Shown: positions 38,013 through 61,994 of the stretch, piece by piece
How positions within the stretch are numbered: position 1 is the first letter of the stretch
How the letters are laid out: the number at the start of each line of letters is the position of its first letter
Assembly (NCBI RefSeq): GCF_013410745.1
Contig: NZ_JACCFY010000001.1
Location: 2,046,001 to 2,110,000, forward strand
DNA: 64,000 nucleotides
Origin: Nesterenkonia xinjiangensis
GTDB lineage: Bacteria > Actinomycetota > Actinomycetes > Actinomycetales > Micrococcaceae
Direction: 5' to 3'
Program-made: the position numbers and the translations under genes
Notes under the pieces: generated by a model
What the model saw: only the letters and a program-made list of their open reading frames with translations
What the model was told of the DNA's origin: nothing
Databases searched by the model: none

Positions 38013-38117
38013 CGTTCACGGAGCCCAGAGGGCTCAGGAGTCTGCGGGACGCCGGCTGACGGCCCGTCCTGTCATCGACTGGCTGTGACGCCCGCCATGT
38101 GATGAGATGAAGGCTGT

Positions 38118-38195
38118 GACACGGGGTGCCGCGCACTGCGGCTGAGATGACACCCGTCGAACCTGATCCAGTTAGCACTGGCGAAGGGATCGTCC
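38118..38195 (+). ncRNA. TPP riboswitch (thi-box) controlling the SDR-LLM operon
   Basis: This is a near-consensus TPP aptamer: ACGGGGTGCC at 38121, GGCTGAGATGACACCCG at 38140-38156, GAACCTGATCCAGTTAGCAC at 38159-38178 and GGCGAAGGGATCGT at 38180-38193. It ends about 115 bases before the SDR gene start. Downstream, two hairpins are possible (about 38201-38220, and GTGAGC/GCTCAC at about 38227-38260), either of which might form the expression switch. No T-tract is seen, so control may act on translation. Confidence 0.95.
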
Positions 38196-38308
38196 GGCTG
38201 GTGCGGCGTTTGGCCGCATCGCGGCGGTGAGCATCGGTCCGCAGATGGCCGCAGGCTCACGTCGCACATCGCCTGCGGGCTGCCTTCGCCTCGAGACGAG
38301 AGGCACGC

Positions 38309-55413: not shown

Positions 55414-55462
55414 TTCGGTCTGCCAGGGCTGGGATTCAGGGCCCAGGTTGTCTTGGAAAGGG

Positions 55463-55605
55463 GAGAACCCCGAGCTGACCTGCGTGAGGGGGACGCATAT
55501 GAGCGGTCAGCTCGGGGTTCTCGTATCACTCGCACCTTGATGAGGTGATAGTTACTCTAGGGACCTATCTTGATGGTTCGCCTGATAATCCCTGGGAGTT
55601 TCCTG
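55463..55605 (-). ncRNA. Structured small-RNA-like element, copy A
   Basis: Read on the minus strand, the element has a conserved upstream block (CAGGAAACTCCCAGGGA, plus 55589-55605), a -10-like TAGAGT (plus 55554-55559), a probable start near 55548, a CACCT/AGGTG mini-hairpin, the conserved TCAAGGTGCGAGTGATAC (plus 55523-55540), and a terminal perfect 18-bp hairpin (55463-55480 with 55505-55522). The hairpin encloses an inner 5-bp stem (TGCGT/ACGCA) with the loop CCCCCTC. The predicted RNA is about 90 nt. Copy B at 56703-56842 has identical spacing. It lies between the convergent ABC membrane gene and the Rieske gene. No known family is recognised with certainty. Confidence 0.6.
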
Positions 55606-55758
55606 AAATTTGGTGACCTTCGAGGGGGATTCAGGCGAGCTGTCCATGTGAACGCGGATCCCTCCACGTCAGCGCCGCGCCCAGGAGGTCGGGGACAGTT
55701 CGGTGACCTCACGCACAAGTGGCCCGGCGTGCGGCCTGAAAGGTCTGTGGCGAGCGGT

Positions 55759-56139
55759 TCAGGACCCCTGAGCTTCGGGGCGCGGAGTGCCCGGGTGGAG
55801 CATGATGTGGTCATGCTCCACTGTGACCAGGTGGGTCTTCACCGGGGTGAGCGCCGGAGGCGTCTCTGGGACCCCGGTGCGCAGGCAGAAGGCCGAGGCG
55901 TGCATGGGGCACTCCAGGGTGTTCTCCTCCACGAATCCGTCGGCGAGCGAAACCGACTCGTGGCTGCACTCGTCATCCAGTGCGTAGAACCCGCCGTCCT
56001 CGGCGTGCACCACGGCGATGTCAGCCTCATAACCGGAGTCCTCGGCAGCCACGCGCATCACCTCACCTTCTTCGAGGGTGTCGACGGGGCCGAGGTCGAG
56101 CGCGGTGCGTGTGAGGTCGGCGTCGGGGGACTGGGTCAT
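55759..56139 (-). CDS. Rieske (2Fe-2S) domain protein, ferredoxin-like
   Basis: A 126-residue Rieske ferredoxin. The cluster ligands are Cys58/His60 (DECSHESVSL) and Cys77/His80 (LECPMHASAF), the pattern of the soluble ferredoxin component of aromatic-ring dioxygenases or of NirD-like and SufBDC-linked Rieske proteins. The acidic content is high. No oxygenase, nitrite reductase or suf gene is next to it, so its electron partner is not evident. The 365-bp gap after its stop holds structured element A. Confidence 0.88.
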   Translation of the reverse strand: MTQSPDADLTRTALDLGPVDTLEEGEVMRVAAEDSGYEADIAVVHAEDGGFYALDDECSHESVSLADGFVEENTLECPMHASAFCLRTGVPETPPALTPVKTHLVTVEHDHIMLHPGTPRPEAQGS

Positions 56140-56267
56140 CAGGACTGCCTTTCGAGTGGATGCAGCGCTGCGGCCGGCGGGTCGCAGCGCCTCTTTCGTG
56201 CAGGGTCATTCTTGCAGGATCGAGGGGGCCTCGGATCTGTGCGACTCAGTGTCGACTCAGTGTCGGC

Positions 56268-56645
56268 TCAATGGCCGCGAAGCTGCTCGAGCTGGCGGCG
56301 TTCGCGCTTGGTGGGCCGTCCGGCGCCACGCGCCCGCACCGGCAGGCCCACATCGCGCGGCCGGACGCGCTCCTCCGAGTGGTCCCGGTAGGCCTTCTGC
56401 GCCACGGGGGCGCCGACACGCTTCGACAGAGTGTGGACGACCTCGAGGACCAGCTCATGACCTGGGCGGCGCACACGAACCACGGTGCCCGGGGAGATCT
56501 TCGCGGAGGCTTTCATCGGCTCACCGTCGATCTTGACGTGGCCCGCACGGCAGGCCGTGGTGGCGGCCGAGCGTGTCTTGAAGATGCGCACCGACCAGAG
56601 CCACGCGTCGACGCGGACCGGAACTGTCGGGGCGTTCGCAGGCAT
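56268..56645 (-). CDS. S4 domain RNA-binding protein (Hsp15-like)
   Basis: A 125-residue basic protein with an N-terminal S4 RNA-binding domain (VRVDAWLWSVRIFKTRSAAT, then AGHVKIDGEPMKAS and ISPGTVVRV) and a basic C-terminal tail ending in RRQLEQLRGH. It resembles the heat-shock protein Hsp15/HslR, which recycles stalled 50S ribosomal subunits carrying peptidyl-tRNA. Single gene, read leftward, about 130 bp upstream of the Rieske gene. Confidence 0.88.
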   Translation of the reverse strand: MPANAPTVPVRVDAWLWSVRIFKTRSAATTACRAGHVKIDGEPMKASAKISPGTVVRVRRPGHELVLEVVHTLSKRVGAPVAQKAYRDHSEERVRPRDVGLPVRARGAGRPTKRERRQLEQLRGH

Positions 56646-56702
56646 GCCTCCAGTCTACGGTGCCGGGCTGGACGGGTGCAGCGGGCGGTCCGGACAGAGA
56701 AA

Positions 56703-56842
56703 CAGGCCCCGTGCTGGGAGCGTAGAGGGGGGACGCTGCTTCCCAGCACGGGGCCTGCTGTATCACTCGCACCTTGAAGAGGCACTACCTACAGTACGGA
56801 CCCATCGTGAACACTCAATGGGTGCTCCCTGGGAGTCTCCTG
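56703..56842 (-). ncRNA. Structured small-RNA-like element, copy B
   Basis: The second copy of the element at 55463-55605, in the same orientation. On the minus strand: upstream block CAGGAGACTCCCAGGGA (plus 56826-56842), TTGAGT and TACTGT as -35 and -10 (the latter plus 56791-56796), probable start near 56785, the conserved TCAAGGTGCGAGTGATAC (plus 56760-56777), and a perfect 17-bp hairpin (56703-56719 with 56741-56757) enclosing an inner GCGT/ACGC stem with a loop of six Cs. TTTCTCTG follows, which fits termination. Hairpin arm sequences are unrelated to those of copy A. It lies past the stop of the acidic lipoprotein gene and upstream of the S4 gene. Confidence 0.6.
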
Positions 56843-56884
56843 GGATTCTCTGAGCACGGCGCGTTCCATGGGTGCGGCAGGAGC

Positions 56885-57625
56885 TCAGCCCTCGCCGTCG
56901 TCAGCGGCAGAGGCATCGGCGTCCTCCTCGTGCTCCGGGGAGTCCTGCTGGTGATACTGGCCGTCGCAGGTCTCCAGCATCCAGGTGTCCAGCGGTTCGA
57001 GCTCGGTCAGGACGGACTCAGTGTCGACGGCGTCGTGGTCTGCTTCGAGCAGGCTCGCGATGCTCTCGAACGGGGCGCGAAGGTCCTCGGGCACGAGCAG
57101 GTATGTCTGCTCCACGGCCTCGTAGGCGCCGTCGGCGTCCTGCTCGGTCTCCAGCCCGTTCTCCATGTCATCGCGCAGCCCGTCCACGGTGGAGCCGACC
57201 GTCATACAGGCCTCCTCCTCTGAGAAGAAGGCCCCCAGCTCCTCGGTGCGCTCGACGTCGAGGGTGGTCTCGGGGTCGGGGAGCCCGTCACGGGTGATCG
57301 CCTCCTGGGAATCGTCGGCCCCATCCTGACTCTCGACGTCCTGAGCGCCGTCCTCGGAGGCGTCACCGTCGTCGTGAGGGTTGTCGTCGTCGGGGCTGGG
57401 GTCCTCAGCGGGCTCCGAGGTCGCCTCATCCCCATCCGCCTCCGCGGGACGGTCGTCGTCCCCGGTGTCAGCGGCACAGCCCATGAGCAGCAGCGGCGCG
57501 ATCAGGGCGACGGCGGCTGCTGAAGGCCAGTGTCGACGCGAGGGGCGGGTGCCCTCGGCCTGGTGGAGCAGGACGGCGGTGGAAGGGGTCCGGGCGCTCT
57601 TCTCAGCGAGGATCTCGAAGTCCAT
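56885..57625 (-). CDS. Acidic putative lipoprotein
   Basis: A 246-residue protein of unknown function. A ~34-residue hydrophilic N terminus precedes a hydrophobic segment and lipobox (IAPLLLMGC, Cys50), then a very acidic Asp/Glu-rich linker (about 53-115) and a helical C-terminal region with two cysteines (EEACMTVGS, LETCDGQY). The long N-terminal region suggests either a signal anchor or an internal true start. Composition resembles the other acidic surface proteins here. It is read leftward, with structured element B 43 bp past its stop. Confidence 0.65.
   Translation of the reverse strand: MDFEILAEKSARTPSTAVLLHQAEGTRPSRRHWPSAAAVALIAPLLLMGCAADTGDDDRPAEADGDEATSEPAEDPSPDDDNPHDDGDASEDGAQDVESQDGADDSQEAITRDGLPDPETTLDVERTEELGAFFSEEEACMTVGSTVDGLRDDMENGLETEQDADGAYEAVEQTYLLVPEDLRAPFESIASLLEADHDAVDTESVLTELEPLDTWMLETCDGQYHQQDSPEHEEDADASAADDGEG

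Positions 57626-58289: not shown

Positions 58290-61994
<3,705 letters not shown>

Follow-up and report, generated by a model that had tools for sequence, protein, structure and literature searches.

The minus strand of a 64-kb window of the Nesterenkonia xinjiangensis genome (positions 2046001-2110000 of a single contig of 3569370 bases) carries two of the four predicted genes that this genome has for a small regulatory RNA about 85-90 nt long; in all likelihood, they represent a family spread through the Micrococcaceae. The explanation favored here, to which a probability of roughly 65% is assigned as a whole, is that the RNA would be activated by the response regulator PhoP, would fold into a defined structure and would block translation through a C-rich loop. 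The parts of this explanation differ in strength and are graded separately below.

Anatomy of the two copies

Copies A and B both lie on the minus strand, as read directly from the window, and share one order of parts. The promoter is followed by a 5′ hairpin, then by the stretch AGGUGCGAGUGAU and finally by a GC-rich, terminator-like hairpin, whose loop is of the CCCCCUC type. In copy A, the operator array (55569-55611, minus strand; 36.6 bits, the best site of the window) contains CAG/CAA half-sites near -60, -49, -39 and -27, counted from the CCTC in hairpin 1, and is accompanied by the -10 hexamer TAGAGT (55554-55559, minus strand) with no -35 consensus. The predicted small RNA of about 85-90 nt, both ends of which are inferred, spans 55460-55548 on the same strand. 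It contains hairpin 1 (CACCU-CAUCA-AGGUG, 55533-55547, minus strand), which is taken from the alignment of copies, single-sequence folding favoring a slightly different, longer helix at this site. The conserved stretch AGGUGCGAGUGAU (55525-55537, minus strand) makes up the 3′ side of hairpin 1 and the linker, and the terminator-like hairpin (55463-55522, minus strand) combines an outer stem of 18 bp and an inner stem UGCGU/ACGCA with the loop CCCCCUC (55486-55492, minus strand).

Copy B repeats this layout on the minus strand, with an operator array at 56806-56848 (30.0 bits), the -10 hexamer TACTGT at 56791-56796 and a predicted small RNA of about 85 nt, its ends likewise inferred, at 56700-56785. 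Its hairpin 1 (UGCCU-CUUCA-AGGUG, 56770-56784) is given by alignment and fold together, and its terminator-like hairpin (56703-56757) has an outer stem of 17 bp, an inner stem GCGU/ACGC and a loop of six Cs.

An unguided repeat search recovered perfect arms of 18 nt in copy A (55463-55480 and 55505-55522) and of 17 nt in copy B (56703-56719 and 56741-56757), together with direct-repeat blocks of 51 nt (78%) and 22 nt (86%) between the copies, at a common spacing of 1237. The first-pass annotation, made from the letters alone, had described perfect 18- and 17-bp arms and copies in register with each other, and the search returned both; the -10-like hexamers at equal offset and the loops with five and six Cs were confirmed by direct reading. 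A further stretch that it had named as a conserved block, CTCCCAGGGA, is not a single block, consisting instead of the second half-site of an 11-nt-phased array and its neighbors. The minus-strand RNA of each copy folds below all of its 200 shuffles (z -7.2 for copy A and -5.6 for copy B). A terminator scan accepted the hairpin of copy B and not that of copy A, and a simple sigma-70 scan of the region found no promoter with a -35 hexamer. By eye, a CAU anti-start codon with a C-run, as in the csRNAs discussed below, is visible in copy A and absent from copy B.

Copies in the genome and spread through the family

Further copies were sought with R1, a sequence-only model of 90 positions that covers the operator, the -10 and the 5′ part, and that was built from 55 of 58 chosen sequences, some of them from genomes that it later searched. 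Both copies noted at first are real, and the total for the N. xinjiangensis genome rises to four in the R1 search (A, B, 812123-812206 and 2463550-2463634; E 3.7e-16 to 7.9e-12), a fifth match (E 0.485) being without the core. At E ≤ 1e-4, R1 finds 1-9 matches per genome in 221 of the 245 genomes searched from the Micrococcaceae, which come from 31 of the 32 genera, and all 27 matches in an order-wide sample of 347 genomes fall within the Micrococcaceae. One genus (g6) shows no RNA at this threshold and weak matches only; at one of these (L238, E 0.12), CACC...GGTGCGAGTGG and a TCCCC loop are present, and it may be a diverged copy of the element. One Nesterenkonia genome (G013) has phoP with the CAG triple described below, yet no RNA at E up to 1.

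A search with the 18-nt core, allowing up to two mismatches, gave matches in 32 of 58 genomes, including 29 of the 30 Nesterenkonia genomes searched, while the reversed core pattern, used as a control, gave single matches in 9 of the 58. Three of the core places (L004, L040 and L048) are chance or coding matches. Among the matches listed for a set of named genomes, at least 120 stretches, the genera are Arthrobacter, Glutamicibacter, Paeniglutamicibacter, Micrococcus, Kocuria, Citricoccus, Zhihengliuella, Yaniella, Auritidibacter, Enteractinococcus, Tersicoccus and Nesterenkonia; an Ignavibacteria contig (L077), also listed, has a core match with no promoter. The analyses of individual members below use 195 distinct sequences aligned around the core, which remain of 203 core matches after removal of the non-members L004, L077 and L172, of four second registers of a duplication in Micrococcus, and of L145, which looks real and has a shifted -10. 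Because members were collected by the core, its invariance is partly by construction. Many loci hold two or three copies in tandem, each with its own array, -10 and hairpin.

Structure, covariation and strand

In the second step of the proposed mechanism, which is supported, the RNA would fold as hairpin 1 (YRCCU...AGGUG), the linker CGAGUGAU and a long GC-rich hairpin at which transcription would end. Structure was assessed on an alignment of 41 out of 49 sequences (L005, L035, two of L036, L066, L129, L156 and L158 being left out), the 49 comprising only C-loop copies of the Nesterenkonia type with near-duplicates removed. RNAalifold, run unguided on these 41 copies, returned 16 consensus pairs, which correspond to hairpin 1, the outer stem and the inner stem. 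Paired cells make up 93.6% versus 86.2% in shuffles, 8 pairs are changed on both sides versus 4.9, and the covariation score is 0.273 versus 0.144; none of 500 shuffles reaches any of five pairing measures, statistics that are inflated by the kinship of the sequences and that concern a structure derived from the same alignment. Structures slid along the 41 copies are 27-56% paired. Covarying stems had been taken from the outset as the sign of a functional RNA, and further copies of this kind had been expected in relatives; the 41 aligned copies, with no shuffle as good, and the matches in 221 of the 245 family genomes bear out both expectations.

The pairs of hairpin 1 vary only as U-G/C-G and A-U/G-U in the 41 copies, and the two pairs concerned are kept in 187 and 190 of the 195 members. 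Since these G-U pairs would be A-C and C-A mismatches on the plus strand, the RNA is assigned to the minus strand. The long hairpin has a median of 16 pairs and a median energy of -35.0 kcal/mol, with 189 of 195 members below -15, and the T-tract is weak, with an average of 3.0 T among the 8 nt that follow the hairpin in the 195 members. That the element constitutes a real small RNA family is held with high confidence.

In five of 12 Nesterenkonia genomes, the terminal hairpins of two copies are 89-98% identical, although their promoters are only 61-70% identical. Hairpins that are alike within a genome and unlike between genomes were seen at L012/L039 (G029), L013 (G009), L020 (G026), L023 (G006) and L033 (G004); as judged from these sequences, such likeness within a genome is concerted evolution of the hairpin.

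The C-rich loop and the conserved core

In the third step, the C-rich loop would pair with the G-rich Shine-Dalgarno sequence of target mRNAs and block their translation, the loops being CCCCCUC and its kin, or CACCUCCUU or GCCUCCUUG in some other genera, and several copies together would provide a dose-dependent output of one two-component system. This anti-Shine-Dalgarno action is proposed tentatively, at odds slightly short of even. CACCUCCUU and GCCUCCUUG presumably represent the anti-Shine-Dalgarno core of 16S rRNA.

CCCC occurs in the folded loop of 126 of the 195 members, CCUCC in 6 and GGG in none. On a common measure, 113 of 165 member hairpins contain CCCC versus 8 of 126 other terminator-like hairpins from the same loci with copies masked, the two measures being close and not identical in that the control needs at least three Ts after the stem and the members do not; a GGGG loop occurs in 1 of the 165. 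The C-rich loop, first described as a shared feature, is therefore usual but not universal. Indeed, 46 of the 195 hairpins have neither CCC nor CCUCC in the loop, so the C-rich loop cannot be the one common function. By eye, most of the 46 are plain hairpins from loci of Arthrobacter, Glutamicibacter, Kocuria and Micrococcus, and some of them hold CACCUCCUU in a partly paired loop. Hairpins with CACCUCCUU or GCCUCCUUG were seen at the Arthrobacter-type loci L083, L084, L090, L118, L135 and L164, as well as at L102 and L155; in those with CACCUCCUU, there is partial pairing between CUCC and GGAG.

Another possibility is that the working part is the 5′ part, in which case AGGUGCGAGUGAU would bind either a protein or a single conserved RNA partner, and the hairpins at the 3′ end would be mere exchangeable terminators. 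The core is the sole part kept across genera, hairpin arms, length and loop all being variable, and in the Micrococcus copies L079, L141, L153 and L181 it is tandemly duplicated, as 15 nt (AAGGTGCGAGTGATG) between hairpin 1 and the terminator. However, the conservation of the core is inflated by the way in which members were found, and the C-rich loops, far above control and with GGGG in a single hairpin, indicate that the loops are selected too. A purely 5′ function is thus regarded as doubtful, and AGGUGCGAGUGAU may serve for docking or as a seed. It is also conceivable, and judged unlikely, that the whole family has modular, PhoP-driven small RNAs in which a conserved 5′ module, made up of the hairpin and AGGUGCGAGUGAU, docks on a shared partner and exchangeable 3′ hairpins resemble, in their loops, the anti-Shine-Dalgarno end of the 16S rRNA (CACCUCCUU in Arthrobacter-type copies, GCCUCCUUG or CCCCCUC), so that copy number and choice of loop would tune translation, the output of a single two-component system.

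The phased promoter array and its proposed link to PhoP

Counted from the CCTC in hairpin 1, the promoters of the 195 members have peaks at -60, -49, -38 and -27, a period of 11 nt, and TANNNT at -14 to -9 without a -35 consensus. An exact CAG is present at -60, -49 and -38 in 48, 55 and 18% of members, respectively, and CA at -27 in 63%, the mean at other offsets being 1.7%. At least two exact CAGs are in phase in 95 of the 195 members and none in 56; the array is thus degenerate in many members, above all outside Nesterenkonia. The distance from the last half-site to the -10 box is 13 nt (-27 to -14). In the first step of the mechanism, PhoP would bind the direct CAG half-sites with their 11-nt period, the last of them 13 nt before the -10 box, and the bound protein would stand in for the -35 element and activate transcription, its own gene being self-activated from the same kind of array. 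As a prediction from sequence, this step is well supported.

The accessible part of one structural report gives the mycobacterial PhoP site as TCACAGC-N4-TCACAGC with an 11-nt period, lists base contacts by Asn212, Val213, Glu215, Ser216, Tyr217 and Tyr220, and describes tandem binding that can be extended to tetramers (PMC4832192). A direct repeat of this type, with 7-bp half-sites and a 4-bp spacer, is found in the RNA promoters. Nine Trans_reg_C matches occur in the N. xinjiangensis genome, with one PhoP orthologue (L187), whose closest solved protein is M. tuberculosis PhoP (286 bits, compared with 180 for PrrA, 171 for MtrA and 159 for RegX3). At the contact places listed in that part of the report, the orthologue has Ser, Ile, Glu, Ser, Tyr and Tyr, four of the six being as in mycobacterial PhoP. 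The next response regulator of the genome is only 41% identical to it. In NCBIfam, no equivalog names the orthologue PhoP, the best scores lying below cut-off, and another of the nine regulators is named MtrA. Two further OmpR-type proteins of the genome (L185 and L188) have receiver parts that look degenerate by eye.

A matrix made from the RNA promoters only scores 18.2 directly before the genome's own phoP gene, which falls within the range of the RNA promoters (median 19.6), and the best non-member site of the window, apart from an overlapping register of copy A, scores 12.4. At the other eight response-regulator loci of the genome the matrix reaches at most 9.7; MtrA and the other response regulators were rejected as drivers. 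When 27 further orthologue loci are scanned from end to end, the matrix scores highest at the phoP promoter in 24 of them, the exceptions being L218, L219 and L226. Of 28 orthologues, 21 have the triple CAG-N8-CAG-N8-CAG ahead of the gene and 26 a phased CAG pair, the numbers expected in 150 nt being 0.0033 and 0.059, respectively. Among orthologues from other families of the order, 18 of 20 have the pair and 10 of 20 the triple; overall, the pair stands before phoP in 44 of 48 orthologues, the short L255 being left out of the order-wide counts. In 39 of the 44 paired promoters NANNNT begins exactly 13 nt after the last CAG, with other offsets at 2 or fewer. The phoP start codon follows the hexamer by about 6-9 nt, so the phoP mRNA is probably leaderless, and PhoP probably activates its own gene. 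The phoP promoters L244-L264, from many families of the order, display the same succession of phased CAG, 13 nt, NANNNT and a start codon 6-9 nt on. Given that the same array and 13-nt spacing stand before phoP, and given the form of the mycobacterial site, the RNAs most likely form a PhoP-activated multi-copy regulon, and control of the RNA promoters by PhoP is considered quite likely on these sequence patterns.

Alternatively, the RNAs could be real but driven by a different regulator of the OmpR type, for which MtrA, a RegX3-like protein and a PhoP paralogue are candidates. Binding to direct repeats is common to all OmpR-type regulators, and the genome holds the nine Trans_reg_C matches given above. 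Moreover, PhoP paralogues outside the Micrococcaceae (L265-L271, 55-60% identical) are also preceded by the phased CAG pair in 6 of 7 cases and the triple in 4 of 7, and a paralogue could therefore share the site outside the family; the 13-nt spacing is present in 1 of these 7. Within the Micrococcaceae, the phased pair occurs in none of three PhoP paralogues within 230 nt upstream. Against a different driver, the phoP promoter is the only one in the N. xinjiangensis genome with a high-scoring array and a phased triple just before the gene, this genome has no close PhoP paralogue (41% at best), and the 13-nt geometry is common to the RNA and phoP promoters, which leaves such a driver decidedly improbable. 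The strict pattern of two half-sites occurs at seven places in the genome, of which copy B is the only known member and several others lie inside reading frames.

Genomic neighborhood

Between the copies there is a gene (56268-56645, minus strand) whose start lies 58 nt past the copy B hairpin and that we take to encode a small S4-type RNA-binding protein. The arrangement at 55462-57625 of the window, in which an RNA copy is followed by the S4-type gene, then by a Rieske-type gene and a second RNA copy, recurs in many Nesterenkonia loci, the names of both genes being presumed from their sequences. The S4-type gene is flanked by copies in many Nesterenkonia loci and also lies beside a copy in L035, L101, L107 and L136. 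Copy A is directed against a convergent permease gene, whose end it runs into.

Such an arrangement could be expected if each element were a cis-acting leader (attenuator) of the gene downstream of it, for example of the S4-type gene, which copy B precedes by 58 nt on the same strand; an S4 match is present in 51 of the 158 loci with members. However, copy A heads into a convergent gene, the copy is located after and not before the S4 gene in L101, L107 and L136, and the many loci with two or three copies in a row have an array, -10 and hairpin for each, which makes attenuation very improbable. Still less credence is given to a DNA element (a miniature transposon, repeat or recombination site) or a tiny coding gene: the perfect long inverted repeats in several copies would suit the former and the ATG or TTG that some members have ahead of the core would suit the latter, but the G-U pairs of hairpin 1 are strand-specific, promoter and operator are kept together with the hairpin, no exact match was found in viral contigs and none similar in plasmids, and the commonest form, CCTCATCAAGG (67 of 195 members), has no start codon before AAGGTG.

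Elsewhere in the window, a TPP riboswitch (38112-38207, plus strand; 64.7 bits) is the sole Rfam match at threshold. A large open reading frame (58290-61994, plus strand) contains a long Glu-Pro repeat and what are presumably peptidase- and SH3-like repeats, and two further stretches are identical to one of its 50-residue repeats.

Relation to known small RNAs

Rfam gives no small RNA family at gathering threshold at the element in the window, nor at the 13 examined of at least 120 loci from other genomes, in agreement with the initial description of a structured small RNA outside Rfam. 6C RNA has two hairpins, each with a run of about six Cs, and reportedly binds its targets through C-rich loops, to go by the title of work by Mai and colleagues from 2019. 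The element resembles it (RF01066) as an actinobacterial small RNA with a C-rich loop, but has one C-rich hairpin where 6C RNA has two. As a candidate, the 6C model was rejected as below gathering, with CCUC only in hairpin 1. The element region has no 6C match at E up to 5, and the separation from 6C RNA suggested at first holds; the own genome has no match either, in a search that also remained below cut-off in 14 controls (one weak match, in C. glutamicum).

Of all Rfam models, mycobacterial F6 (SfdS, RF01791), which shares a long CCCCG/CGGGG stem with the element, scores best in the region; at 29.8 bits (E 0.0066), it lies below its gathering score of 46 and was rejected. The match is strand-blind: the plus strand scores nearly as high, at 28.2 bits, which means that the model recognizes nothing but the long GC stem. 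F6 depends on SigF, according to the accessible part of its description (PMC8557902), whereas the promoter here consists of a TANNNT -10 and the phased CAG array and has no SigF-like look, as judged without a SigF motif search. The chance that the element is a member of 6C RNA or F6 is close to negligible.

In organization, the PhoP-activated RNAs proposed here recall the csRNAs of the CiaRH regulon of Streptococcus, which the accessible text presents as multi-copy RNAs preceded by TTTAAG-N5-TTTAAG with an 11-nt period, mostly with two stem-loops and a conserved stretch between them, and as able to pair with Shine-Dalgarno regions (PMC3091779). As far as that text describes them, both sets have several copies per genome, a promoter repeat of 11 nt for an OmpR-type regulator, which is a predicted one here, two stem-loops and a conserved middle. 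The likeness is one of architecture only, as phylum, regulator and half-site (CAG-centered here, TTTAAG there) differ, and as the C-rich sequence lies here in the terminal hairpin loop, with no general CAU anti-start codon. The RNAs are most likely organized like CiaR csRNAs and not homologous to them. Mcr7 of M. tuberculosis is a PhoP-activated small RNA said, in the accessible text, to block translation of tatC (PMC4038636). PhoP activation, predicted here, would be shared, but Mcr7 is about 350 nt in length, has one copy and is, by the same text, confined to the M. tuberculosis complex (PMC4038636). Together, the csRNAs and Mcr7 provide a good precedent for the proposed regulator and layout. 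The Streptomyces RNAs scr5583 and scr1434 likewise have a stable stem-loop and a C-rich loop, a comparison made by their published description and not by sequence (PMC3765725). Four small RNAs reported in Arthrobacter oxidans are not comparable with the element, because the accessible text does not give their sequences (PMC6696678). The literature searched, mostly open-access main texts, contained no RNA of this description in Micrococcaceae, and a text search with the letters of the core matched only works with titles unrelated to small RNAs of these bacteria.

Significance for the Micrococcaceae

Beyond the first-pass annotation, the analysis adds the phased operator, the predicted link to PhoP, the 5′ hairpin, the copy number and the spread of the element. 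To our knowledge, few small RNAs are known in the Micrococcaceae (Arthrobacter, Micrococcus, Glutamicibacter, Nesterenkonia and others). Judged by its sequences, the element would be a new family of a known kind of arrangement, in which multiple RNA copies answer to one two-component system. What sets it apart is a constant 5′ module, preceded by four half-sites in phase and joined to 3′ hairpins that are exchangeable. With 1-9 copies in each of 221 of 245 genomes and a predicted regulator, it offers a testable regulon outside pathogens. If PhoP control holds true, PhoP would be linked to a small RNA in actinobacteria for a second time, Mcr7 being the other case, and the CiaR csRNAs would have an independent counterpart. 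Furthermore, the phased array with its fixed 13-nt spacing would provide a usable rule for finding PhoP promoters, in other families of the order as well.
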